Assembly (NCBI GenBank): GCA_947259575.1
Contig: CAMYMU010000048.1
Span: 1 to 64,000, forward strand
DNA length: 64,000 nucleotides
Reading direction: 5' to 3'
Origin: an uncultured Ectothiorhodospiraceae bacterium
Lineage (GTDB): Bacteria; Pseudomonadota; Gammaproteobacteria; UBA6429; Thiohalophilaceae
Every line of letters begins with the position of its first letter. Positions within the stretch are counted from its first letter, which is position 1. Below are positions 14,370-52,747 of the stretch, one piece after another. Under the pieces are notes generated by a model that ran no database searches, was not told the origin of the DNA, and worked only from the letters and a program-made list of their open reading frames with translations. Position numbers and translations under genes: made by a program.

Positions 14370-14816
14370 ATGTCAGGACTTATTGCTAATTTTCCACACG
14401 ATGGCGTAGTTACAATTAACCGCGTTATTTTGAAACCAGAATACACGACCGATGACCTGCAAGAGCGCGTTGCGTTTTTGTGTGAAAACGTCAAAACCTA
14501 CCACTCGGATACAGGTTTTGTGGGTGGTTTCGTATCGCTAAACAGCGGTGCCGTCTCCAACGAAGGTTCGACCATTGGTCAGGCCGTTGAAAGTGAATAC
14601 AAAGGTAAAGAAGCGCTGATTATCACCTTCTGGAAAACCTTCGAAGATCACGAAGAGTCACATAAATCAGAGACTTTCCAGCCTTTATTCGAGCAGGTTT
14701 TAGAGCTGTGCGAAAACGGTAATGAAGAAATCGCATACGAAATGCTCTGGTCTGGTAAGGCTTATTCTGAGGAAGAAGCCAAGGCCGCAAGGGCAGCAAA
14801 AGAACAAGCTGCTTAA
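14370..14816 (+). CDS. Small soluble protein, probable dimeric alpha/beta-barrel fold (function unknown)
   Basis: A 148-residue acidic protein without signal peptide or membrane segment. The pattern of a beta strand (GVVTINRVILKP), helix (TTDDLQERVAFLCENVKTY), strands (GFVGGFVSLN, EALIITFWKTFEDHEESHKS) and helix recalls ferredoxin-like dimeric barrels of the antibiotic-biosynthesis-monooxygenase type, in which the W-x-(T/S)-x-E-x-H segment is typical. The C-terminal 20 residues are an Ala/Glu-rich helix. GAGGTG precedes the ATG and a perfect terminator follows, so it is monocistronic. The fold is inference; no substrate or cofactor can be named. Confidence 0.6.
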   Translation: MSGLIANFPHDGVVTINRVILKPEYTTDDLQERVAFLCENVKTYHSDTGFVGGFVSLNSGAVSNEGSTIGQAVESEYKGKEALIITFWKTFEDHEESHKSETFQPLFEQVLELCENGNEEIAYEMLWSGKAYSEEEAKAARAAKEQAA

Positions 14817-14852: not shown

Positions 14853-14882
14853 GGCGCATCATCCCCTGATGCGCCTTTTTTT
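14853..14882 (+). terminator. Rho-independent terminator
   Basis: A perfect 9-bp stem GGCGCATCA / TGATGCGCC, loop TCCCC, then seven T. It ends the gene at 14370 and abuts the 3' end of the convergent protease gene. Confidence 0.85.
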
Positions 14883-15306
14883 ATGGCCAGAATAACCAGA
14901 AGAATCCAACGTTATAAAAGCCGTGCATAACTATCGGTGAGAGCAATGACTGGTGCCGCTCTTTTAAGTAACCAAAGACAATGGACGGGAAAAAAACCAG
15001 CAAGGCCCAAATCCAGTGGCTGTAAATCAGATGAGCAAGGACAAAGATCAGACTGGTCAGCAGGTTTGCTACGCTGAGCAGGCCATAACGCTGCACAAAC
15101 CGTTTGGCCAGTAATTCCAACAGCAGGCCACGAAAGACTATTTCCTCTAAGAGCGGGTAAACCAGGATAATCAACACAATCTGATACCAGGCAATAGCCG
15201 CCGGAAACCCTATCTGTAAGGGCTGAAAATAGGCGATGCCTGACCAGGATATGGGCCCGAGCAGCAGGCATAGGTAAAATTGCCAATCGACTAGAATACG
15301 CTTCAT
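14881..15306 (-). CDS. CPBP-type glutamic intramembrane protease, MrtJ-like (JDVT-CTERM sorting)
   Basis: About 141 residues, nearly all membrane helices. The CPBP (CAAX-protease) motif EEIVFRG lies at about residues 63-69, and a later conserved His is in the helix containing VMHGFYNVGFFW. An ATG at 15306 (MKRILVDWQFYLCL) preceded by AAGGT is preferred. A longer frame to 15390 would add 28 polar residues with no such site. Short single-domain CPBP proteases of this kind serve C-terminal sorting systems. Two downstream M4 peptidases carry a Gly-rich, Cys, FDP, hydrophobic and Arg tail that looks like the JDVT-CTERM signal, which makes MrtJ the likely identity. It is divergent from them. Confidence 0.65.
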   Translation of the reverse strand: MKRILVDWQFYLCLLLGPISWSGIAYFQPLQIGFPAAIAWYQIVLIILVYPLLEEIVFRGLLLELLAKRFVQRYGLLSVANLLTSLIFVLAHLIYSHWIWALLVFFPSIVFGYLKERHQSLLSPIVMHGFYNVGFFWLFWP

Positions 15307-15754
15307 TCGTCTACCTTCATTGACTTCCCACTTCCCCCAAATAGAACCACCATTATATATAGTAAGCAGCCAATCCAGCGTTTTTACCATGTCAGTGGCT
15401 AACCTATTTTATTTTTAAATAAAACAATAAGTTAGCCGCGTCTACAGGGGGAATGGTAAGAAAGGGTAATACGTGCCCTGGTTCACAGATCACAATACCA
15501 GCACTCTCACTAGTGCAATTCTGGCCGTTAACTATATGTACAACCTGTTTAAGTTGAACGGCATTTATTCGCAAAGCATCGTGCTGAAGAGGCTGGTATT
15601 ATGATGACATCAAGTTTGAGCACACGAGACCTGTTGAGCCGCCTATAATGTTAATCACAGGCACTCCGCACACGTTACCGCACCGCGTCTTGGACTTGAC
15701 CAAAATAATAAAATACAAATTTTTTTAAGCACTTGTTCAACTGGGGATTAACGA
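15307..15754. other. Intergenic region between MrtJ-like and M4 peptidase genes
   Basis: No convincing gene. It holds an inverted repeat AATACCAGC (15494-15502) / GCTGGTATT (15592-15600) and one open frame of 43 codons from a GTG at 15473 (AAAGG upstream) to a TGA at 15602-15604, with a hydrophobic middle. The frame is too weak to call a gene. The last 80 bases are AT-rich and probably hold the peptidase promoter. Confidence 0.3.
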
Positions 15755-18379
15755 ATGAACCGCAAACTACTACGTGCCAAACTACTGCACACCTGCGCTG
15801 TTATACTAATTAGTCTAAGCACGCTGACGACAGCCACTACTCAAGTGTATGCTGTTGATAGTGCGCAAAAGGCTAAATCGAATCTAGGCAATAAAAAATT
15901 ACGCATGCTGCGTGGCCAGAAAGGTCCGATGGCAATAAAAGACAATAGCCAACGCCCACTCCACGAGAAAGTTGCTGACCAGTTTGCGCCTCAGTTTGGT
16001 CTACCCAATCCGACTCAACAATTACGCGTAAAAAAACAAAAATCCCAGAATGCCAAAAAGAATATTCGCTACGGTCAGCTCCACCAGGGGTTACCGGTTA
16101 TTGGTGGTGAGTTAGTCGCGAACCTTAATGAGCAAGATCAACTGACCTCAATGTCAGGAGAGATCAGCGCGGTTCGATTAAATGATGTTACTCCCACCAT
16201 CAGCGCCGAACAAGCCAGTGCCAACGCCATGCAGGCCACCGCCAAGTGGTATCAACTTGCCGCTGATCAGTTGGTCGCATCCACACCGGTGCTTTCAATT
16301 TTTGACCCAAGCCTGCTGATGAACACCCGCCCCTCATCCGCACTGGTCTGGGAAGTGAATGTATCGCCCAATACAGTTGCTGATATCAATGAGAAATTTT
16401 TTATTGATGCCAATACGGGCGGCATCGTTTTACATTTTAATGAAGTCGACACGGCGCTTTTACGTGAGACTCATGATGCAAACAATCTGTTTACCTTACC
16501 CGGCGCACTGATCTGTAACGAGGCTACCCCCTCCGACACATGCTCAGGTGATGCCGATACCGATGCCGCCCATGCTTATGCCCGTGATACCTATGAGTTT
16601 TACTTCAATACCCATGCTCGCGATGGCATCAATGACGCAGGCATGAAGATTACATCTACCGTCCATTTTGGTACCGCAGCAGATCAACTCAACCCATTTC
16701 AAAATGCCTTCTGGTTAGGGAGCACTCCGTATCTCGGGGCCAGAAATCAAATGGTATATGGCGATGGTTTTGCCCTGGCAGATGATGTTGTTGCCCATGA
16801 ACTCACCCATGGTGTCACCAACTTTAGTTCTAACCTAATTTACTTATCCGAGTCGGGTGCGATTAATGAGTCCATGTCCGATCTATGGGGTGAGTTTGTC
16901 GATCAAACCAATGGTGCGGGTTCAGATGCTCCGGCTGATGCCTGGAAACTGGGTGAAGACCTGCCTGCCGCCATCGGTGTTGTGCGAGACATGAAAAATC
17001 CAGGTACTTACAGTCACCCTGATCGCATGACCAGTCCAAACTTTTATATCGGCAATGATGATAACGGCGGTGTGCATATCAATAGCGGCGTAAATAACAA
17101 AGCCGCTTACCTGATGGTGGATGGCGATACCTTCAACGGCCAAACCGTTGTAGGGATGGGCATCACTAAAACTGCCAAGCTTTACTACCAGGTACAGACC
17201 AACTACCTGACCACAGGCGCAGATTATCTCGACTTATACAATGCTTTGAACTCAGCCTGTGCAGATTTGGTGACCAGCGGTGATCTTGTTACTGCAGACT
17301 GTACAGATACCGTCGCCCCTGCCCTGGCGGCGGTTGAAATGAACCAGACACCTAATGCAGCCTATGCACCAAGTGCCGACATCTGTGCGGTAGGCAGTCC
17401 GTATGATCTGTTTCTCGATGATTTCGAGAACAACGGCCTAAGCAGCTGGGCGGTAACCAATCAGTTAGGCAGCAATAAATGGACGACCGGTGGCACCAAC
17501 CTTGCCAGTAACTCAGGCGATGTGACCATACTGACCGATGGCCATAATACCGTGATCACATCCCCTGATAATCCCCTCGATGATAGCGACACTGCACTTG
17601 AACTTGTCACCGCTGTGCGTGTTCCTGCATCTGAAACGGCATACATTCATTTTGATCATGCCTTTTACTTCGAAGAATTTTCTACTGCCAAGTTCGATGG
17701 TGGCGTTATTGAGTACAGTATTGATAACGGGAGTAACTGGGTAGATGCGAGCAGCCTGATTGATGCAGGTAGAAATTATAACGGTGTATTAGCTTACACA
17801 AATCCAGAGAGCGGGCGCAGTGCTTTTACTACCTTCAGTAATGGTTATAACTCGACTCGATTAAATTTAAGCTCACTTGCTGGCAATTACATATTGTTCC
17901 GTTTCAGAAGTCTTGCCGATGAAAGTGTCGAGTCCGGTCCCTGGACGATTGATAACTTCCGTTTTTATCTTTGTGCCAACAATGCACCGCCGATTCCCAA
18001 TGCTGGTGTAGATCAAACCGTTAGTGGTGGTGTGAATGTGCAGCTGGATGGCTCGGTAACAGATCCCGATGGCGATGCAATTACCTATCAATGGACACAG
18101 CAGAGTGGCCCAACTGTCACCCTAACAAATGCAAACACACTAACACCTAGTTTCACCTCACCCTCGAACACCGACAACATGGTCTTTGCTCTCAGCGCCA
18201 CCAGCAATGGTGTAACCGAAACCGATACGGTGACAGTCTCGGTTAACTTTGTCTTTGCCGGCTCATCAGGCGGTGGCGGTGGCTGTAGTGTGAGTCAAGA
18301 TGGACGCTTTGATCCCTTGTGGTTGTTGTTGCTCTTGTTGCTAGCTGGAGTTCACATCAGGAGTCGGCGTCACAGATAA
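15755..18379 (+). CDS. Secreted M4 (thermolysin-like) zinc metallopeptidase A with C-terminal sorting tail
   Basis: 874 residues. Signal peptide (about 1-32), FTP/PepSY-type propeptide (about 50-235), then the M4 catalytic domain with HELTH (His348-Glu349-His352), third zinc ligand Glu372 in AINESMSDLWG, and the thermolysin-like DNGGVHINSGVNNKAAYL block with the catalytic His. Next come a jelly-roll/MAM-like region (about 545-740) and an Ig/PKD-like domain (about 745-835). The end is GGGGGC, SVSQDGRFDPLW, a run of Leu, then Arg/His, which is a tripartite sorting signal. All catalytic residues are present, so it is probably active. A paralogue lies at 19027, and an emfourin-like lipoprotein lies between them. 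Confidence 0.9.
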   Translation: MNRKLLRAKLLHTCAVILISLSTLTTATTQVYAVDSAQKAKSNLGNKKLRMLRGQKGPMAIKDNSQRPLHEKVADQFAPQFGLPNPTQQLRVKKQKSQNAKKNIRYGQLHQGLPVIGGELVANLNEQDQLTSMSGEISAVRLNDVTPTISAEQASANAMQATAKWYQLAADQLVASTPVLSIFDPSLLMNTRPSSALVWEVNVSPNTVADINEKFFIDANTGGIVLHFNEVDTALLRETHDANNLFTLPGALICNEATPSDTCSGDADTDAAHAYARDTYEFYFNTHARDGINDAGMKITSTVHFGTAADQLNPFQNAFWLGSTPYLGARNQMVYGDGFALADDVVAHELTHGVTNFSSNLIYLSESGAINESMSDLWGEFVDQTNGAGSDAPADAWKLGEDLPAAIGVVRDMKNPGTYSHPDRMTSPNFYIGNDDNGGVHINSGVNNKAAYLMVDGDTFNGQTVVGMGITKTAKLYYQVQTNYLTTGADYLDLYNALNSACADLVTSGDLVTADCTDTVAPALAAVEMNQTPNAAYAPSADICAVGSPYDLFLDDFENNGLSSWAVTNQLGSNKWTTGGTNLASNSGDVTILTDGHNTVITSPDNPLDDSDTALELVTAVRVPASETAYIHFDHAFYFEEFSTAKFDGGVIEYSIDNGSNWVDASSLIDAGRNYNGVLAYTNPESGRSAFTTFSNGYNSTRLNLSSLAGNYILFRFRSLADESVESGPWTIDNFRFYLCANNAPPIPNAGVDQTVSGGVNVQLDGSVTDPDGDAITYQWTQQSGPTVTLTNANTLTPSFTSPSNTDNMVFALSATSNGVTETDTVTVSVNFVFAGSSGGGGGCSVSQDGRFDPLWLLLLLLLAGVHIRSRRHR

Positions 18380-18508
18380 AACTCTGAGTGAGCTGTTTAG
18401 GTTTTGTAACAAGATGTAATCTTAAAATCATTCAGCATTAAGCGTGTTAGCATAATAATTTGCTATTTAATGCTGTCAAATAAGATGGTGATCATGGAGT
18501 GCGATCAG

Positions 18509-18991
18509 ATGAAAAATTCCACTTTAGCTAAATTGGGTATTAAAACCGGCTTTTTGTCGGTGCTCCTAAGCTTTGCAATCCTTCTGATTGCATGTAATCC
18601 AACGACTTCAGATACGATGAGTCCAAGCGCAAATTGGTCGGTAAAATTGACCCTATCTGGCGGTTTTGCGGGCTTAAATCGCTCGATCTCCCTGAATCAA
18701 GACGGTCAGGCCATATATATAGATAAAAGAGCAAAATCCAGAGTTGAGAAGCAGGTCACTCAGCAGGACTTGCAGAATTATGTGAAATTGGTCAAAATTT
18801 TACCAGTTAATCAGGCCCTGAAGCCCAAGCCAACTCGCTGTAATGATTGCATCAACTACGTACTTGTCGCCTCTTTTGATGGGACCAGCAAACGTAGAAC
18901 CGCAAACGACCTCACACTAGGTAGCTCAGATGCCAACGAACTTATTAAAAATCTAACGATGCTTGCATCTGAAATGGCAGCTAAAAAGTAA
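18509..18991 (+). CDS. Emfourin-like lipoprotein (candidate M4 peptidase inhibitor)
   Basis: About 160 residues from the ATG at 18509; in-frame ATGs at 18470, 18485 and 18494 are possible but would lengthen the signal peptide. The N-terminus is a lipoprotein signal with lipobox LIAC (MKNSTLAKLGIKTGFLSVLL then SFAILLIAC). The mature part begins WSVKLTLSGGFAGLNRSISL; the SGGFAGL core resembles the emfourin family of protein inhibitors of M4 peptidases, whose genes sit next to protealysin-type peptidases. Two further Cys (CNDC) may form a disulfide or bind metal. Position between two M4 peptidase genes supports the inhibitor idea. Similarity is judged by eye, so the function is an inference. Confidence 0.6.
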   Translation: MKNSTLAKLGIKTGFLSVLLSFAILLIACNPTTSDTMSPSANWSVKLTLSGGFAGLNRSISLNQDGQAIYIDKRAKSRVEKQVTQQDLQNYVKLVKILPVNQALKPKPTRCNDCINYVLVASFDGTSKRRTANDLTLGSSDANELIKNLTMLASEMAAKK

Positions 18992-19026
18992 TACTTCTAC
19001 ACATACTGAATTTGTAAGGGGAAATA

Positions 19027-21585
19027 ATGTTTTTAAGAAAAATCTGGATCGTTTTGGTGAGTACACTACTTGTTTCGATCCCATTTTCAAGCGCAATCAC
19101 CGCCAAAGAAATAACCCAAAATAATGGTTTTTCGTTCCAGAAGGATCCGGCTACCAACAAAGTCCGTATGTTACGCGGCAACGCCGGTGCACTCAGAGTA
19201 CAAAAATCAGCAGGCGAGAGCACTGCTGATTCGGTCAAGCGACAATTTGCACCTCACTTTGGCATTAAAAATCCCGCTACTGATTTAACGGTTATAAAAG
19301 AGCACTCCCCCTCGGCAAACCGACAGCACATTCGCTACCAGCAACGATACAAAGGTATACCTGTTATCGGTGCCGAGCTGGTGGCCAACCTGAGCAATCA
19401 ACAACTGATCTCCATGTCTGGCGAGACTTCAACTGTTAATGTGAAAAGCCTTGTACCCACTGTAAATTCTAAGCAGGCACAAAACACGGCGATAGCAGCA
19501 GTAGCAAAATGGTACGCATTTGCACCCGCTGATTTAAATGCAAGTTCACCTGAACTTAAAATTTATGATCCCGCACTCATCGGACCGGGTAGCGGTCAGC
19601 AACGCCTTGTCTGGCAATTAACTGTCACACCCACTACGCTTGCACCGGTTAAAGAATATGTCCTCGTTGATGCTGAGCGTAATGTCATTGTCTTGCACTT
19701 TAACCAGATCGATCATGTACTAAGCCGTGAAACCTATACTGCTATCAGTGGAAACATAGCCGATCTACCCGGCACCCTGGTGTGTACTGAAGTCATGGAC
19801 CCGACTTGTGTAGGCAGTGGCGCCGATGCACAGAGTGCGCATCAATATGCTGCTGATTCCTATAACTTTTATTTTACTAATCATGGACGTGATAGTCTGG
19901 ATGACAATGGTATGACCATTGTTACCACGGTCAATTTTGGCAATGTTGGCAATGCCTTTTGGACAGATAGTACCCCCGTACCCCAAATGGGTTTTGGCCC
20001 TGGTTTTGCCTTAGCCGATGATGTCGTCGCACACGAATATACTCACGGCGTCACCAATAACACATCTAACCTTTTCTATTACTACCAGTCCGGTGCAATC
20101 AGTGAATCACTCTCCGATGTCTGGGGTGAGTTTGTTGATCTGACTAATACAGGAGGTACCGACGGTGCCCCTGAACGCTGGCTATTAGGTGAAGACATAC
20201 CCGGCGGTGCAATACGTAGCATGGCTAACCCACCTGATTATGGCGACCCTGATCGAATGGTCAGCGCCAATTATGTTACAGGCGCTTCGGATAATGGTGG
20301 TGTGCACTCCAACAGCGGTGTTAACAACAAGGCCGTCAGTCTGATGGTCGATGGTGGTAGTTTCAATGGTCAGACCATCACTGCGATCGGATTAGACAAG
20401 ACCGCAGATATCTATTATGAAGTGCAAACCAACTACCTAATTTCTGGCTCAGATTACCTAGACCTTTATAATGGTCTTAACCAGAGCTGTCAGAATTTAA
20501 TTGGCACTAACGGCATCACCAGTGCTGATTGCACCCAGGTAAATAATGCGCTGCTTGCAGTTGAAATGAATCAGCAACCTGTTGCGAGTTTTAATCCTGA
20601 GGCTACCATTTGCCCAGGTGCAATTACCGTCAATGATCTCTTTTTCGATGACATGGAAAATACATCTGCAGGGAATTGGGGCACCATGACCATGGCAGGC
20701 TCAAATCCATGGAGTTATGTGAATGGTTACGCAACCTCTGGTTCATTATCATTTGGTGCACTCCCCGGTGGGTTAGTTGAAGACGTCGCGCTGGTTAACG
20801 TCAACCCGGTAGTGTTACCTTCAGCAGGCGCAGCATACCTCCACTTTGACCATGTCTTTGATTATGAGCTTAACCCTGCTGGCCCATTCTATTTTGATGG
20901 CGGCATGCTTGAGTATAGTATTGACAATGGCGCAACCTGGGTGGATGCAGGTTCATTAATCGATGACGGTCGCACATATACGGGCACATTAGCAGCTGGA
21001 TTTGGTAATACTCAGGAAGGTCGAAGTGCCTTTGTCGGCCCGAGCCATGGTTATAATTCGACTCGACTAAACCTATCCTCTCTAACTGGTAATAATATAC
21101 AGATTCGCTTTAGACATGCTTCGGATAGCAGCGTCGCAAGTCTGTTCTGGTCAATAGACAATGTTCGCGTTTACACCTGCGGAATTCCACCGGTTGCGAA
21201 TGCAGGCCCTGATCTAACCGTCGATGCTGACACACCTGTTAATCTTGATGGCAGCAATAGCTCAGACTCTGATAGCGGCTTTACTTACTCGTGGACACAA
21301 GCCAGTGGTACAGGTGTGACGCTTACGGGTACCGACACAGCTACGCCAAGCTTTACTTCACCACAATACGCTACGCAATTAACCTTCCAGCTGACAACCT
21401 CTGATCCGGAGGGGAATGCGGATATAGATACCGTTACAGTAACTGTAAATGGACCACCTGCACCGAGTGGTGGTGGCGGTGGTGGTGGTTGTACTGTAAG
21501 CGAGAACGGACGCTTTGATCCTATCTGGCTATCACTACTGTTGCTGCTATCGTTGATACATCTACGTCGACGCCGTAGTAACTAA
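19027..21585 (+). CDS. Secreted M4 zinc metallopeptidase B with C-terminal sorting tail (paralogue of A)
   Basis: 852 residues with the same architecture as the gene at 15755: signal peptide (about 1-27), FTP/PepSY propeptide, and an M4 domain with HEYTH (His336-Glu337-His340), Glu360 in AISESLSDVWG and DNGGVHSNSGVNNKAVSL. A jelly-roll-like domain and an Ig/PKD-like domain (about 715-815) follow, then the tail GGGGGGGC, TVSENGRFDPIW, a Leu-rich helix and RRRR. The gene begins about 35 nt after the emfourin-like lipoprotein (AAGGGG upstream of the ATG), suggesting co-transcription with it. The tail matches that of paralogue A closely, implying the same sorting protease. The strand carries a terminator after the stop. 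Confidence 0.9.
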   Translation: MFLRKIWIVLVSTLLVSIPFSSAITAKEITQNNGFSFQKDPATNKVRMLRGNAGALRVQKSAGESTADSVKRQFAPHFGIKNPATDLTVIKEHSPSANRQHIRYQQRYKGIPVIGAELVANLSNQQLISMSGETSTVNVKSLVPTVNSKQAQNTAIAAVAKWYAFAPADLNASSPELKIYDPALIGPGSGQQRLVWQLTVTPTTLAPVKEYVLVDAERNVIVLHFNQIDHVLSRETYTAISGNIADLPGTLVCTEVMDPTCVGSGADAQSAHQYAADSYNFYFTNHGRDSLDDNGMTIVTTVNFGNVGNAFWTDSTPVPQMGFGPGFALADDVVAHEYTHGVTNNTSNLFYYYQSGAISESLSDVWGEFVDLTNTGGTDGAPERWLLGEDIPGGAIRSMANPPDYGDPDRMVSANYVTGASDNGGVHSNSGVNNKAVSLMVDGGSFNGQTITAIGLDKTADIYYEVQTNYLISGSDYLDLYNGLNQSCQNLIGTNGITSADCTQVNNALLAVEMNQQPVASFNPEATICPGAITVNDLFFDDMENTSAGNWGTMTMAGSNPWSYVNGYATSGSLSFGALPGGLVEDVALVNVNPVVLPSAGAAYLHFDHVFDYELNPAGPFYFDGGMLEYSIDNGATWVDAGSLIDDGRTYTGTLAAGFGNTQEGRSAFVGPSHGYNSTRLNLSSLTGNNIQIRFRHASDSSVASLFWSIDNVRVYTCGIPPVANAGPDLTVDADTPVNLDGSNSSDSDSGFTYSWTQASGTGVTLTGTDTATPSFTSPQYATQLTFQLTTSDPEGNADIDTVTVTVNGPPAPSGGGGGGGCTVSENGRFDPIWLSLLLLLSLIHLRRRRSN

Positions 21586-21611
21586 CAAGCAAATCATCCA
21601 GCATAAAAAAA

Positions 21612-21640
21612 GCGCGTCCTAATTTAGGACGCGCTTTTTC
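21612..21640. terminator. Bidirectional Rho-independent terminator
   Basis: A perfect 10-bp stem GCGCGTCCTA / TAGGACGCGC with a 3-nt loop, flanked by A7 on the left and T5 on the right, between convergent genes. It serves both the M4 peptidase and the lipoprotein at 21666. Confidence 0.85.
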
Positions 21641-21665: not shown

Positions 21666-23597
21666 TTACGGTGCTGGTACTACTAGGACATTGCTAGAAC
21701 CAACAATAATAATAGTACCGCCGTCAGGGGTCACAACCATTCTAGGGTTGGTACCGGCACTGTCTGCAATCGTCGTAGCTGTACCTATCTCAACAAAACC
21801 ACCTGCACCATCCGAAGTGGTTGTATCGAGTACATGTAGTAAACCCGTTGAATTGTTATAGGCATATGCACGTGTACCATCTGGCGATAGAGCCCCTGCA
21901 ATCCCATTCAGGAAACTCTGTCCATCGAGTGGGGGTAGTGAGCCTAATAAGCTCAGGTTTTCATCATAGACACGGTGCTCGTTGATGGCGCCGGTATGCC
22001 AGATAATTGTTCTTGATCCCGTCTTATCTAGAGAGACACCCGACAAGTTCGAAGTCACTAAACCAGTTGTACTTAATTCACCAGTACTAGACAAATACTT
22101 TTCGACAAACTCACTCGCAGCACCCAGGGCGAAGTAAGGAATGACAACCTGACTACCATTAGTCGGTGCACCCAGGAATGAGTTTGCATACCGGAAGGAA
22201 TTGCTCAGGGGTTCAAATCCACCACTAAGACTGTTATAGGCAAACAAGTAATTACCCACTGATGTGGATGTCATAATTATCTTGCCATCATTCGTGGCTT
22301 TCGCGTAGCTCAGGCTGTTGGTAAACGGGAATACGTTCACTAATGGTCGGCTAGCAGTATTATCCAGATCAATCGCATAGAAAGAACTACTGTTTGTTCG
22401 ATACAGAGTTTGTCCATCAGGTGACATAGTGATATCACCCGCATTACCTGATCTAAAGGCGGTTAGGTTGATAGCCTCAGCTAAACTCCAGCTAGTACCA
22501 AAAACATAGCGTTCTAGTTGGTTCTCAGTGGCATCCGAAATATATATAGACTGACGTTCAGCATCATAAACAATATTGCGTACTTCGTTGCCGGTACGTG
22601 CTATTGCCTGATAGCTATATACCGGTGCATCCATGACAACCAGACTGGCATTACTCGTTAATGGAGAGCCATTATCTTCTACAGTTACTACATAATTCCC
22701 TAAAGCAAGCCCAGGGTGTGTAGCACGTATTTCTGAATCATTGACAATGGTGAATGCGCTTGCTGCCGTCGCACCAAACATAACTTGTGGTGTAGTCAAG
22801 CCTGTAAATCCATGACCGCGAATGATCACATCGCCCGATACACTTGTTGTTGCCACATATGGCGAAACGAAATTAACGGCTTGCGCATTTACAGTCAGGG
22901 TTAACGGTACCGACTTGGTTACACCGTTCACAGTAAAATTTAAAGTTGCCGTGTGGACACCAACAGGTATTGCGGTAACATCTGCTGTTACATTGATTTG
23001 TGCAGGAAGCGTAGCGCCGGATGTTGCTGAGAGCGACCACCAATTTGCAGTACCTGTACCTGGCACAACACTCGCACTCCAGCCTGAGGCGACACCGGTA
23101 TAGTCAACACTGGCAGGCTTCGTATCAGTAGCCGTACCCTCAAGTAGTGAGAAATTTATAAACTCTGGAGAGACATTGATCGCCGTGACAGTATAAGTGA
23201 CATCGATAGTTTTGGGACTACCGGCAACCTGTGCATTACAAAAAGAATCGCTACAACCGTAAACGGTAATCGAGCCACTATATTGGCCTGGCGCCATAGT
23301 CGGTGATGTTGGGGTAATGGTTATATCACCCGTGGTCGGGCCAGTAAGTGTAAACGAAGTACTAAAATAAGCACTGCTCTCGACTACATCTACAAATACC
23401 GTTCCGCTATTTACGGTTACCGTAACGACTTGAGAAGCCGGCGCAGAACCCCCTGCTACCGCGTCAAAACTAATGGAGTTGGACGAAAGCGAATAAGGAT
23501 CACTACTACCACCCCCACCGCCGCCGCCACATGCGGTGATAAATAATGACAAAAACACAAACGACAGGATGGTGCGCAGCACAATAAATGACTTCAT
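21666..23597 (-). CDS. Lipoprotein with BACON-like, IPT/TIG-like and beta-propeller regions
   Basis: 643 residues. The lipobox FITAC at residues 19-23 is followed by a Gly/Ser linker (GGGGGGGSSD), so the protein is anchored in a membrane with a flexible spacer. Residues about 35-140 and 140-235 look like two BACON/Ig-like domains (SLSSNSISFDAVAGG, PKTIDVTYTV). About 240-320 resembles an IPT/TIG domain (VIIRGHGFTGLTTPQVMFG). The rest has repeated four-stranded blades with YVTN/propeller style (QSIYISDATENQLERYV, MSPDGQTLY, LSPDGTRAYAYN, VTPDGGTIIIV). No enzyme motif is seen; an adhesive or carbohydrate-binding surface role is possible. A hairpin CCCACAA / TTGTGGG lies upstream at 23631-23659. 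Confidence 0.7.
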   Translation of the reverse strand: MKSFIVLRTILSFVFLSLFITACGGGGGGGSSDPYSLSSNSISFDAVAGGSAPASQVVTVTVNSGTVFVDVVESSAYFSTSFTLTGPTTGDITITPTSPTMAPGQYSGSITVYGCSDSFCNAQVAGSPKTIDVTYTVTAINVSPEFINFSLLEGTATDTKPASVDYTGVASGWSASVVPGTGTANWWSLSATSGATLPAQINVTADVTAIPVGVHTATLNFTVNGVTKSVPLTLTVNAQAVNFVSPYVATTSVSGDVIIRGHGFTGLTTPQVMFGATAASAFTIVNDSEIRATHPGLALGNYVVTVEDNGSPLTSNASLVVMDAPVYSYQAIARTGNEVRNIVYDAERQSIYISDATENQLERYVFGTSWSLAEAINLTAFRSGNAGDITMSPDGQTLYRTNSSSFYAIDLDNTASRPLVNVFPFTNSLSYAKATNDGKIIMTSTSVGNYLFAYNSLSGGFEPLSNSFRYANSFLGAPTNGSQVVIPYFALGAASEFVEKYLSSTGELSTTGLVTSNLSGVSLDKTGSRTIIWHTGAINEHRVYDENLSLLGSLPPLDGQSFLNGIAGALSPDGTRAYAYNNSTGLLHVLDTTTSDGAGGFVEIGTATTIADSAGTNPRMVVTPDGGTIIIVGSSNVLVVPAP

Positions 23598-38419: not shown

Positions 38420-39643
38420 TTAGTGGTGACCTTCTGCTTTCAGTTTAGCCAGGTCTTCGTCCTCGATGTCACCTACAAGGTGGTATAGAGGCGCTTTTTC
38501 CATGGTGTATTCACCTGTCTTAGGATCACGACGAGATACTGTCAGTACGTGCCAGTTCTCATCATCAACCTTCATGGCATCACCACGGTAGTAGTAACCA
38601 GGCCAACGTGTTTCCTTACGGAACAACGTATGCTGGAACACAGCTTCTGAAGTAAGGAAACGATGCTTAAGTTCCCATGCACGTAATAGTTCATGGATAT
38701 CTTCAGCAGCAACTTTGTCCAGATCTTCACCCAGAACCTTCATCTTCTTAAGACCAATGTGCAGGAGCTTGTCGTTGGTCATGTAGTTCACACCAAAACC
38801 ACCGCAGTACTCATCCATCAGCTTCTGCAGACGGTCAAGCCCCTGACGTGGGTTGATGTAGTTAGGGTTAACAGAACCAGCAACGATTTCGTTACGGCCT
38901 ACAGTATAAGTTTCCAGAGGCTTGAAGATCTCTTCTTTACGACGTTGGATCTGAGCGTCAGTAACACGAATGCCTTCTGCTTTGCCGTCATCGATATATT
39001 TACAGGCAGCTTTAGCAGCGAGACGACCTTCAGTAAACGAACCTGATGAGAATGCGTGAGGTGTACCACCTACCGCATCACCCGCACCGAACAGACCTTC
39101 AATAGTCGTCATGCGGTTATAACCCCAGAAATACTCATCTGGTGAAACATCTTCAGGACCTGAACACCATGCACCACAACCAGTAGCGTGTGAACCCATT
39201 ACATATGGCTCAGAAGTGGTTAATTCAGGGTTCTCATATTTTGGATCTACATCTGTAGCAGCCCAAAGTACCGCCTGACCAACAGTCATACCCAGGAAGT
39301 TATGCCAACCGATCTCTTCAAGATGAGGATCCTGGAAGGCTTCCATAGTAACCATGTGAATTGGACCACGACCCGCATTCACCTCGCTGATGATTGCGTG
39401 GTTACGTAAACAAGTTGGAATTGGACGGTGAGTGGTGTGAGACGCTTCTGGGTCCAGGTATTCTTTACCCACCATTTCCTGCAGTGCAGGGAACCACTTT
39501 GACTCATACTCTTCGCCGTAAGCATTCTGCGTATAAGTTTTCAGGTGCAGGAAGTAAGCACCAACAGGGCCGTAACCATCTTTGAATCGAGCCAGAACGA
39601 TACGGTTTTCCATTTGAGTCATCTTCGCACCCGCTTCAATCAT
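38420..39643 (-). CDS. aprA: Adenylylsulfate reductase alpha subunit, C-terminal portion (aprA interrupted)
   Basis: 407 residues starting MIEAGAKMTQMENRIVLARF, which is the middle of AprA, not a natural N-terminus. It contains the conserved RFKDGYGPVGAY, PTCLRNH, GSHATGCGAWCSGPED, GLFGAGDAVGG, and the C-terminal RWPGYYYRGD segment. The ATG overlaps the TGA of the upstream AprA portion (ATGA). Just upstream in this frame the codons read SGSAYGL, as in intact AprA. About 40-45 residues that the family has between NVRTGNYH and SGSAYGLM are absent here, and the two halves are in different frames. This is therefore a deletion or frameshift mutation or an assembly error, not two normal genes. Confidence 0.85.
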   Translation of the reverse strand: MIEAGAKMTQMENRIVLARFKDGYGPVGAYFLHLKTYTQNAYGEEYESKWFPALQEMVGKEYLDPEASHTTHRPIPTCLRNHAIISEVNAGRGPIHMVTMEAFQDPHLEEIGWHNFLGMTVGQAVLWAATDVDPKYENPELTTSEPYVMGSHATGCGAWCSGPEDVSPDEYFWGYNRMTTIEGLFGAGDAVGGTPHAFSSGSFTEGRLAAKAACKYIDDGKAEGIRVTDAQIQRRKEEIFKPLETYTVGRNEIVAGSVNPNYINPRQGLDRLQKLMDEYCGGFGVNYMTNDKLLHIGLKKMKVLGEDLDKVAAEDIHELLRAWELKHRFLTSEAVFQHTLFRKETRWPGYYYRGDAMKVDDENWHVLTVSRRDPKTGEYTMEKAPLYHLVGDIEDEDLAKLKAEGHH

Positions 39644-40221
39644 AAGACCGTAAGCAGAACCCGATCGTGATAGTTACCAGTACGAACGTTGAAACCAACG
39701 GCACCCGCTACGCGGTTTTCCTTGGCTTCGTCCATTAACAGGTGTGTTACACAGACGCGGTTGAATACCTTGTCAGCTGAGTTCTTTGCAGCTTCAGCTA
39801 CGAGCGGCTTGTATGATTCACCATGAATCATGATCTGCCAACGACCTTCACGCAGGTAAGCGCCGGTCTTCTCGTTGCGCATGATAGGCATGCCCCAATC
39901 CTCGAACTGGTGTACAGCCGAGTCAACGTGACGCGCCATATCAAATGCCAGATCTTCACGTACCATACCCATTAGGTCGATACGCGCGTAACGTACGTGA
40001 TCTTCCGGGTTGTTCTCGCCGAAGCGGGTACCCATGTAACAGTTGATCGCATATAAACCCTGGGCAACGGCACCAGAACGATCGATGTTAGCTTTTTCAG
40101 CAATCACGATCTTTTTGTTCTGGCCCCAATATCTTGCTTCAAACGCAGCACCGGTACCACCAAGGCCCGCACCAGCAACCAGGACGTCGATATCGTCTTC
40201 AATAATTGTCTTGTAGCCCAT
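39640..40221 (-). CDS. aprA: Adenylylsulfate reductase alpha subunit, N-terminal portion (aprA interrupted)
   Basis: 193 residues. It begins with the FAD-binding Rossmann motif VLVAGAGLGGTGAAFEARYW and contains DRSGAVAQGLYAINCYMG and VRTGNYH (His185, codon at 39667-39669). The last eight residues (DRVLLTVL) are out-of-frame read-through after the junction. AprA forms a complex with AprB and in sulfur oxidisers converts sulfite + AMP to APS, with FAD as the catalytic cofactor. It directly follows aprB (the stop of aprB and the ATG of aprA share one base). Lacking the rest of the FAD domain, the fragment alone should not be active. Confidence 0.85.
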   Translation of the reverse strand: MGYKTIIEDDIDVLVAGAGLGGTGAAFEARYWGQNKKIVIAEKANIDRSGAVAQGLYAINCYMGTRFGENNPEDHVRYARIDLMGMVREDLAFDMARHVDSAVHQFEDWGMPIMRNEKTGAYLREGRWQIMIHGESYKPLVAEAAKNSADKVFNRVCVTHLLMDEAKENRVAGAVGFNVRTGNYHDRVLLTVL

Positions 40222-50151: not shown

Positions 50152-50493
50152 TTATTTTTTATCTTTTTTAGATTTCTTGTCTTTTTTGGATTTTTTATCT
50201 TTCTTGGATTTCTTATCTTTCTTGGATTTCTTATCTTTCTTGTCTGTTTTAGACTTCTTATCCTTTGTGGCCTTTTCACCCTTCTTACCTTTGGCCCTAC
50301 AATATCCTTTGACTTTTGTACCATCTTGTTTAGTAAATCCCTTAACCCAAACACACGTGCTTTTACCCGAGCATTGCGATTTTGCCATACCTTTACAGGC
50401 TGACGCCGCATAGGCATTAGTTGACACTAATAGCGCCATTAACATTGTTAACCCAACAAGACTTTTCAAATATTCTTTGTAATACAATTTCAT
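50152..50493 (-). CDS. Small secreted Cys-containing protein with Lys/Asp/Ser hexapeptide-repeat tail
   Basis: 113 residues. A signal peptide (about 1-30, ending AYA) precedes a short Cys domain (CKGMAKSQCSGKSTCVWV and a later VKGYCR), giving four Cys that probably form two disulfides. The tail (about 72-113) is almost pure Lys, Asp and Ser, built of tandem KKDKKS units encoded by near-identical 18-nt repeats. Such a strongly basic tail could bind DNA, phosphate polymers or the cell wall. The operator copy d is about 75 bp upstream, which places the gene in the putative regulon. No named family. Confidence 0.7.
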   Translation of the reverse strand: MKLYYKEYLKSLVGLTMLMALLVSTNAYAASACKGMAKSQCSGKSTCVWVKGFTKQDGTKVKGYCRAKGKKGEKATKDKKSKTDKKDKKSKKDKKSKKDKKSKKDKKSKKDKK

Positions 50494-50733: not shown

Positions 50734-51648
50734 CTATTTTTTTCCGCCAGTCTGAAAGAGACCTTTATCAGTCGCATCATCGTATTGCTCAATCTGTTTC
50801 ATCACCAGGCCAATTGCATCCGAATAGGGGACTGAACCAGCTGCCTTTATCACAGCACGCCCTTCACGCGATAAAGCAAAGGTTATGAAATCTTTCACTT
50901 TCTGGTCAGCAGATGCACGTCCTTTGGTCACCAAATACAAGGGTCGATATAATACATAGGAGCCACTTTTAATATTTTCATAGCTAGGCTCCTTACCGTT
51001 CAGCTTCAGGATCTTCACTTTACGACGCTTGGCACTACTAATACCTGTTGTGCCAATACCGAACTTATTTTTCTGAACCCCTTTTTCGACAGGCCCTGAA
51101 GATCTTTCTATATATTTGGCGCCAGGAAATCCTTGATCGAAATTGGCAAATACTAGTTCTCTCAAGGTACGTCCAACTCCAGAAAACTTACCACGGCGAA
51201 CATATAGCTCAATCGGTTTGTTTGGACCGCCAAGCTCTTTCCAGTTTTTGAGTTTACCCAGATAAATATTTTTCAGGTCACTCACTGAAATCGAATCAAC
51301 AGGGTTATCCGGATGCACAATAACAACTAAGGCATCCCAGGCAACAGGTACCTGATAGGCACCTCGCTCTTCAGGATGGCCTTCAATAATGGGACGGCAG
51401 GCACCACCGATGTCAATTGCACCCTTTGAAGCATTGCGAATGCCCTTGGTCGCACCACCACCCTTGAGGTTGACCTTGATGCCGGTCTTCTTCTCATAGG
51501 CCTTGGCAAGCTCAGCCATAAAGGCTTTTTTAGTAATACCACAACCCGCCCAAAGTATGCTGGAATCCTGAGGTTTCGCCACAGAAACACCTGCGGTGGA
51601 GAACGATATAGTCAGTAGCAAAATTAAGTAATATGCCGAACGGTGCAT
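50734..51648 (-). CDS. PstS-like periplasmic substrate-binding protein, copy 1
   Basis: 304 residues. A signal peptide (about 1-24) precedes a PBP-like fold of the phosphate-binding (PstS/PBP_like_2) type: LWAGCGITKKAFMAELAKAY, KVNLKGGGATKGIR, AIDIGGACRP, VAWDALVVIVHPDNPV and the later GTTGISSAKRR. The GGGAT / GIRN region corresponds to the oxyanion-binding site. It is about 80% identical to the gene at 51833, but no permease or ATPase genes lie nearby. It may be an orphan binding protein for sensing or phosphate/sulfur oxyanion scavenging; the ligand is unknown. It has its own terminator. Confidence 0.85.
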   Translation of the reverse strand: MHRSAYYLILLLTISFSTAGVSVAKPQDSSILWAGCGITKKAFMAELAKAYEKKTGIKVNLKGGGATKGIRNASKGAIDIGGACRPIIEGHPEERGAYQVPVAWDALVVIVHPDNPVDSISVSDLKNIYLGKLKNWKELGGPNKPIELYVRRGKFSGVGRTLRELVFANFDQGFPGAKYIERSSGPVEKGVQKNKFGIGTTGISSAKRRKVKILKLNGKEPSYENIKSGSYVLYRPLYLVTKGRASADQKVKDFITFALSREGRAVIKAAGSVPYSDAIGLVMKQIEQYDDATDKGLFQTGGKK

Positions 51649-51781
51649 TTCTATACTCCATATAGTTTACTGGTCACCTACTTATTGTCGGAAGATTTTC
51701 CCGAAACTTTACAAAAAGTTTCATAAATGGCTGGGGAATGCAAAATAACCGATTGATATTATTGACTAAATTAGTCTGATT

Positions 51782-51803
51782 AAAAAAGGGGCCAAAAGGC
51801 CCC
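51782..51803 (-). terminator. Rho-independent terminator of binding-protein gene 2
   Basis: GGGGCC / GGCCCC stem with an AAAA loop, followed on the minus strand by TTTTTT; nearly the same as the terminator at 50683, so it was duplicated with the gene. Confidence 0.8.
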
Positions 51804-51832
51804 CTCTCTACTTTCGATAACCTAAGTGCAGA

Positions 51833-52747
51833 CTAGCGTTTTGCAGCCGTCTGATGCAGACCTTTATCAGTCGCGTCATCGTATTGCTCAATCTGTTTCA
51901 TCACCAGACCCATGGCATCAGAATACGGCACTGAGCCGGCTCGCTTGATTACGCCACGACCCTCTCTAGATAAAGCAAAGGTAATAAATTCCTTCACTTT
52001 TTTATCTGCTGAGGCACGCCCCTTAGTGACAAGGTATAACGGGCGGTACAATACATAGGAACCACTTTTAATGTTTTCGTAATTAGGTTCTTTACCATTA
52101 AGTTTTAGTATTTTTACTTTACGGCGTTTAGCACTACTGATACCTGTGGTGCCTAAACCTAGCATATTGGTTTGTATCCCTTTTTCCAATGGCCCTGAAG
52201 ATCGTACGATGTGTTTTGCACCGGCAAAGCTTTGATCAAAGTTTGCAAAGACTAATTCACGTAAAGTTCTGCCTACGCCAGAGATCTTGCCACGACGGAC
52301 ATACAATTCGATAGGTTTATCCCAACCACCAAGCTGATTCCAGTTTTTGATCTTACCGGTATAAATATCCTGTAATTGTCTAACTGAGATAGTATCAACG
52401 GGATTCTTAGGGTGAACGATAACAACCAGTGCATCCCAGGCGACAGGCACTTGATAAGCACTTCGCTCTTCAGCGTGGCCATCAATAATCGGGCGACAAG
52501 CACCCCCTATATCAATGGCACCCTTTGAAGCATTGCGAATGCCCTTGGTCGCACCACCACCTTTGAGGTTGACCTTGATGCCGGTCTTTTTCTCATAGGC
52601 CTTGGCAAGTTCTGCCATGAATGCCTTTTTAGTGATACCACAACCTGCCCAAAGCAAGCTTGTACCCTGCTGTTCAACAGCCAGTGCACTAGTGGCGAAA
52701 AATGATAACGCGGTCGATAAAAGAAGTAATTTAAAACTACGAGCCAT
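51833..52747 (-). CDS. PstS-like periplasmic substrate-binding protein, copy 2
   Basis: 304 residues, same length and architecture as copy 1: signal peptide (about 1-23, ending ALA), then LWAGCGITKKAFMAELAKAY and all the other oxyanion-site motifs. It differs mostly in the signal peptide, the middle (about 120-185) and the very C-terminus (HQTAAKR against FQTGGKK). Several 40-100 nt stretches are almost identical in DNA to copy 1, although other parts differ at many third positions, which suggests gene conversion. A tandem duplication; both copies look intact. Confidence 0.85.
   Translation of the reverse strand: MARSFKLLLLSTALSFFATSALAVEQQGTSLLWAGCGITKKAFMAELAKAYEKKTGIKVNLKGGGATKGIRNASKGAIDIGGACRPIIDGHAEERSAYQVPVAWDALVVIVHPKNPVDTISVRQLQDIYTGKIKNWNQLGGWDKPIELYVRRGKISGVGRTLRELVFANFDQSFAGAKHIVRSSGPLEKGIQTNMLGLGTTGISSAKRRKVKILKLNGKEPNYENIKSGSYVLYRPLYLVTKGRASADKKVKEFITFALSREGRGVIKRAGSVPYSDAMGLVMKQIEQYDDATDKGLHQTAAKR

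Follow-up and report, generated by a model that had tools for sequence, protein, structure and literature searches.

What does a small lipoprotein do between two exported M4 peptidases? This question is raised by the window analyzed here, a stretch of 64,000 nucleotides that is part of contig 48 of a draft genome of 3.45 Mb. It contains a compact locus (14881-21585) with the gene of the protease MrtJ on the minus strand, followed on the plus strand by M4 peptidase 1, the lipoprotein, and M4 peptidase 2. To our knowledge, emfourin is known only as a cytoplasmic protein that guards an intracellular peptidase, and few proteins inhibit thermolysin-type peptidases. According to the reading that we favor, at a probability of about two in three, the lipoprotein belongs to a branch of emfourin that is exported, anchored by a lipid, and distinguished by two additional invariant cysteines, and it restrains its own surface-bound M4 peptidases.

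Organization of the locus

The features of the locus are collected in Table 1. The original prediction of a 160-aa lipoprotein between two intact, sorting-tagged M4 peptidases was confirmed. The reading frame of the lipoprotein opens with an ATG at 18509 that is preceded by GGAG, and it encodes the lipobox, an SGGFAG motif (residues 50-55), and the CNDC motif. Both flanking proteins matched the Pfam and NCBIfam families listed in the table, and alignment to thermolysin and bacillolysin revealed intact catalytic motifs in both (HELTH/HEYTH, GAINESMSD/GAISESLSD, and DNGGVHxNSG). The features by which the M4 family is recognized, namely HExxH, the third zinc ligand Glu, the catalytic His, and the FTP propeptide, were present in each peptidase. 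The domain architecture of M4 peptidase 2 was the same as that of M4 peptidase 1, and PKD-like domains were matched by Pfam in both.

Table 1. Coordinates of the features of the emfourin-M4 locus within the window.
Feature	Position	Strand	Basis and remarks
MrtJ, glutamic-type intramembrane protease of the JDVT-CTERM system	14881..15390	-	NF033192, 100.6 bits (cut-off 75); Pfam Rce1-like
M4 peptidase 1, 874 aa	15755..18379	+	Pfam M4, M4_C, and FTP over cut-off; signal sequence, FTP propeptide, HELTH catalytic domain, MAM-like and PKD-like domains, JDVT-CTERM tag
JDVT-CTERM sorting signal, peptidase 1	18269..18370	+	NCBIfam, 35.8 bits; GGGGGC...hydrophobic...RSRRHR
Exported emfourin-family lipoprotein (predicted), 160 aa	18509..18991	+	Lipobox LIAC-N, linker, emfourin domain at about residues 43-158
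Codon of Cys 29, which is predicted to be lipidated and to begin the mature lipoprotein	18593..18595	+	Sequence; aligned Cys column
CNDC motif, residues 111-114	18839..18850	+	Invariant C-x-D-C of the exported branch
M4 peptidase 2, 852 aa	19027..21585	+	Pfam M4, M4_C, and FTP over cut-off; HEYTH; JDVT-CTERM tag
JDVT-CTERM sorting signal, peptidase 2	21475..21579	+	NCBIfam, 35.1 bits
Intrinsic-terminator-like hairpin	21607..21639	+	15 pairs, strong; closes the three-gene run

These two enzymes were the only M4 peptidases found genome-wide, and peptidase 2 is a paralogue of peptidase 1 (47% identical). In the tree, peptidase 1 clustered with the single M4 peptidase of the congeners (support 100/100) and peptidase 2 fell outside the congener clade; peptidase 1 is the orthologue of the congeners' single enzyme. 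The locus of one congener (G003, L015) contained MrtJ, the lipoprotein, and one M4 peptidase, and that of another (G001) contained the lipoprotein and an M4 peptidase. Among the genomes seen, a lipoprotein flanked by two peptidases was peculiar to the window genome, while the pairing of lipoprotein and M4 peptidase was general. The three plus-strand genes likely form an operon, because no terminator-like site was found between them and the last gap, from the lipoprotein to peptidase 2, is 35 bases.

Two neighbors of the locus were also recorded. A 148-aa protein (14370-14816, plus strand) was conserved at this position in congeners (L014, L015), and its match to sulphur oxygenase reductase was sub-threshold (E 3e-4, 20.2 bits against 25). 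A 643-aa predicted lipoprotein (21666-23597, minus strand), with CGGGGGGG after the signal and a TIG domain, is convergent with the putative M4 operon.

The JDVT-CTERM tags and MrtJ

At the NCBIfam cut-off of 27 bits, only two JDVT-CTERM proteins were detected in the whole genome, and these were the two M4 peptidases of the window. MrtJ, a close relative of myxosortase, has two tagged targets in the window genome and one in the congeners with an intact locus. Neighborhoods of two genes, MrtJ and a JDVT-CTERM protein, have been described in beta- and gammaproteobacteria (PMC11980579). Myxosortase cleaves MYXO-CTERM proteins, and the model proposed for the latter involves a lipid on the invariant Cys and type II export to the surface (PMC11980579). 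The window resembled the two-gene system in that MrtJ lies beside JDVT-CTERM proteins, both over their NCBIfam cut-offs. It differed in having two targets instead of one, both of them M4 peptidases, with an inhibitor-family lipoprotein in between. The MrtJ/JDVT-CTERM system would thereby gain a concrete, testable cargo and a control logic.

Homologues of the lipoprotein and their conserved residues

Relatives of the lipoprotein were sought in 115 related genomes. Twelve matches were obtained, one of which (G096; L013, L024) was spurious, being unconfirmed by the family profile and having no M4 gene nearby. The first alignment contained 11 members, including the window lipoprotein; a 12th (L031) was obtained from an Emfourin search of the class, and a profile search added four more, giving 16 in total. 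These homologues were about 21-33% identical to the window lipoprotein. Because G51, G52, G55, C111, D113, and C114 (window numbering) were invariant in all 16, the SGGFAG and CNDC motifs are not due to chance. A lipobox-like Cys was present in 14 of the 16 members. The residue at +2 was Asn in the window lipoprotein and Asp in none of these 14, which, by the E. coli rule, suggests the outer membrane. Across the alignment the emfourin domain was conserved and the linker after Cys 29 was not; the AF2 model gave a pLDDT below 50 at residues 31-38 of the linker, consistent with disorder.

Scans of genome contigs, viral contigs, and plasmids yielded no further useful relatives. A sample of 289 genomes from the phylum yielded no copy other than that of the window, with no evidence for the exported branch beyond the class.

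Homology with emfourin

Searched as a single sequence, the window lipoprotein matched only one Pfam family, Emfourin (PF20242), at E 0.17 and 12.8 bits, below the curated cut-off of 27; this resemblance, taken alone, is only a lead. The single sequence had no match in NCBIfam, PHROGs, or the PDB (phmmer), and the Pfam Emfourin profile had none in the DNA of the window genome. The family as a whole gave clearer results. Each of the 11 sequences in the first alignment matched Emfourin, and three congeneric orthologues exceeded the Pfam cut-off of 27 (29.3, 29.3, and 27.8 bits).

The comparison set consisted of emfourins, drawn from the class and the phylum, that scored above or close to the Pfam cut-off; 18 of them were aligned. 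Nearly all of this set directly adjoined an M4 gene, mostly of the protealysin type of about 340 aa, and the profile of the 18 retrieved PDB 6zyg ('Protealysin-associated protein') at E 4e-32. The GG pair provided the only invariant columns. The C-x-D-C of the exported branch was absent from the 18 aligned cytoplasmic sequences, and no lipobox was found in the cytoplasmic emfourins sampled.

Comparison of the exported family with the 18 emfourins by hhalign gave an E-value of 1.6e-5 and a probability of 79%. With the enlarged exported set, the values were E 5e-6 and 86%, with a score of 36.8, against at most 14.7 for 100 column shuffles and 9.7 for the reversed profile. The alignments spanned 85-86 columns and were collinear, with SGGFAG over GGFA and C-A-D-C-x-x-Y over (G)-x-D-x-R-x-Y, which places the two cysteines on either side of positions already conserved in the cytoplasmic family. 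These results give good support to placing the window lipoprotein in the emfourin family, as part of an exported branch.

Other candidates were rejected. The matches of the exported-family profile to the Pizza and TRIM71 beta-propellers of the PDB were sub-threshold repeat matches, and a CxxC oxidoreductase was set aside, with no family match.

Predicted fold

The AF2 model of the exported domain had a pLDDT mostly above 90. It consisted of strands 43-51, 56-63, 67-72, and 77-82, helix 85-96, strands 115-123 and 126-133, and helix 143-158. The order of elements was bb-(hairpin)-a-bb-a in the lipoprotein and bb-a-bb-a in the model of a cytoplasmic emfourin (L059). The extra hairpin at 67-82 corresponded to an insertion that was also visible in the profile alignment, and the two predicted folds match once this one hairpin is allowed for. 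The original prediction had named similarity to emfourin in profile and structure as a test, and it described the CNDC pair as an addition. All three points held: orthologues exceeded the Pfam cut-off and the hhalign score was significant against shuffled controls, the predicted folds share their order of elements, and the pair was invariant in the exported branch and missing from the aligned cytoplasmic emfourins. The close linkage with M4 genes described below lends further support.

In a Foldseek search with the lipoprotein model, 6zyg was not among the first 50 matches listed. This absence says little, because the model of the cytoplasmic emfourin likewise did not have 6zyg among its matches listed. 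The best match, Mago nashi (E 1e-3, TM about 0.45), was weak and common to the cytoplasmic emfourin model, and we regarded it as a general fold likeness and not as a pointer to function. The Streptomyces SSI-family inhibitors SSTI and sermetstatin were neighbors of both models; they scored only weakly (E of about 0.01 or higher) and had no sequence match. SSTI is annotated as an inhibitor of subtilisin and TAMP, and these two neighbors hint that families of protease inhibitors may be distantly alike.

Association with M4 peptidases across genomes

An M4 gene adjoined 12 of the 16 exported members, in five families (the window, L015, L016, L017, L018, L020, L021, L022, L023, L089, L092, and L093/L031), with two of these M4 genes cut by contig ends. 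The members at L014 and L019 sit at contig ends. The other two, from one genus (L090, 1265-1726; L091, 5374-5823), were secreted emfourin-like proteins with CxDC and without a lipobox; they were found near cytochrome-type genes, not adjacent to an M4 gene, and both genomes have an M4 peptidase elsewhere.

Co-occurrence was consistent with this linkage. Among 369 genomes of the class, 31 had an M4 peptidase and eight had the exported family, and all eight carriers had both (Fisher p 1e-9); the genomes were treated as independent in these tests though they are related, and the eight carriers span six families. Among the 40 genomes of the order, M4 occurred in 10, the lipoprotein in nine, and both in eight (p 5e-6, from the same kind of test). 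In the ninth carrier (G035), an M4 propeptide cut by the contig end lies beside the lipoprotein. The only two M4 genes of the order without a nearby member (G039, G028) also had no sorting tag.

The tails of the partner peptidases varied. Some were JDVT-CTERM tails with Cys, others were MYXO/GlyGly-like without Cys (L023 and L089; weak in L021 and L093), and the partner at L092 had no recognized tail. Since the tails vary in this way, the lipoprotein travels with the M4 peptidase and not with one sorting enzyme.

Proposed function and alternative explanations

Emfourin contacts the active-site region of protealysin in a 1:1 ratio, the two are encoded in one operon, and deletion of emfourin lets protealysin harm the cell (PMC9505478). 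By analogy, we propose that the lipoprotein would be made together with both M4 peptidases, cross the inner membrane by Sec, be lipidated at Cys 29, and probably be carried to the outer membrane. The peptidases are expected to be lipid-anchored after MrtJ has removed the JDVT-CTERM tail. The emfourin domain would then bind the active-site face of the propeptide-free M4 peptidases, as cytoplasmic emfourin does with protealysin, and the tethered lipoprotein would guard the envelope from digestion, during export or on the surface. In the oxidising periplasm, the two cysteines of CxDC are probably joined by a disulfide, which would brace the loop ahead of the third core strand. The data themselves show the homology, the fold match, the export signal, the gene linkage and co-occurrence, the intact catalytic motifs of the partners, the sorting tags, and MrtJ; we infer inhibition of the M4 peptidases, co-transcription, the final location, the disulfide, and the time at which the brake would act. 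A more speculative and somewhat doubtful extension is a two-anchor unit, in which a dedicated sorting protease has the peptidase lipid-anchored C-terminally and the inhibitor is anchored N-terminally; inhibition would need a shared membrane, and the peptidase would become active once shed or transferred.

M4 precursors already bring an inhibitory, chaperone-like propeptide with them, so an additional protein such as the lipoprotein might have a different task. The main rival reading is that the emfourin scaffold serves as a foldase, chaperone, or secretion pilot, holding the M4 precursor during maturation or hand-over for export with no lasting inhibition. Some other exported enzymes have foldases anchored in the membrane, as lipases do with Lif, and the strict M4 partnership and the lipid anchoring fit such a role equally well. 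We nevertheless consider it unlikely: the precursors retain the FTP propeptide, the family's usual intramolecular chaperone, and the only characterized emfourin is an inhibitor that acts at the active-site region (PMC9505478). It is quite improbable that the peptidase instead uses the lipoprotein as a substrate or releases it as an effector, as in Listeria, where the secreted metzincin Mtz cuts the TIMP-like lipoprotein Tim off the membrane (PMC8235301). The layouts are alike, in that a metalloprotease gene adjoins that of a lipobox-bearing, inhibitor-like lipoprotein in each (PMC8235301), and the predicted disorder of the linker after Cys 29 would suit cleavage; yet it is the domain that is conserved and not the linker, and nothing in the window points to cleavage. 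Moreover, Mtz-Tim involves another protease family and another inhibitor fold, in a Gram-positive bacterium, with Tim reported as cut and released (PMC8235301), and no TIMP was found among the 50 PDB neighbors listed by Foldseek for the lipoprotein model.

An effector-immunity role has been proposed for protealysin and emfourin (PMC9505478), and an outward-facing lipoprotein would be the first to meet foreign peptidases. That it is mainly an immunity protein against the M4 peptidases of neighboring cells, and not a guard against its own enzymes, is very improbable, however, as the partner peptidases carry anchoring tags that argue for action by contact or on the own cell. A chance SGGFAG in an unrelated lipoprotein would agree with the weak single-sequence Pfam match (E 0.17), but this explanation is in effect refuted by the homologue scans with the relatives' Pfam Emfourin matches, the hhalign comparison, and the M4 linkage, and we regard it as barely credible.

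Relation to known inhibitors

As a restrainer of its own peptidases, the lipoprotein would be closest to emfourin itself (M4in, PF20242, PDB 6zyg), which inhibits protealysin in Serratia proteamaculans. The two share the domain, by profile and predicted fold, the GG-containing first hairpin, and a gene position beside an M4 peptidase gene. The exported branch differs in its signal sequence and lipobox, its long linker, the invariant C-x-D-C, and an insertion of about 16 residues that forms a beta-hairpin ahead of the first helix. Its partners are exported, mostly surface-tagged M4 peptidases of 850-1090 aa, whereas those of emfourin are protealysin-like enzymes of about 340 aa. The AprI/Inh-type periplasmic inhibitors of serralysins are likewise exported and encoded with the exported metalloprotease that they restrain; the likeness is one of description, and the protease there belongs to M10B. 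No description of an exported emfourin or of such an M4 pairing was found in the literature searched, which did not include the original emfourin papers, so an earlier mention is possible. If the proposed role is true, the same inhibitor has been relocated to the outside along with its enzyme, and the branch would offer inhibitors for a secreted protease class that includes virulence and spoilage enzymes.

Other observations in the window

The gene aprA (adenylylsulfate reductase alpha; 38420-40221, minus strand) was split into two open reading frames in different frames, 39640-40221 and 38420-39643. A stretch is presumably missing at their junction near 39660, which would reflect a fault in the assembly or a broken gene. 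A small exported protein (50152-50493, minus strand) had a lysine-rich end of KSKKDKK-type repeats and no Pfam match. Close to it on the same strand, 50734-52747 encodes two near-alike tandem proteins of the PstS-like phosphate-binding type (50734-51648 and 51833-52747), which differ most in their signal sequence.
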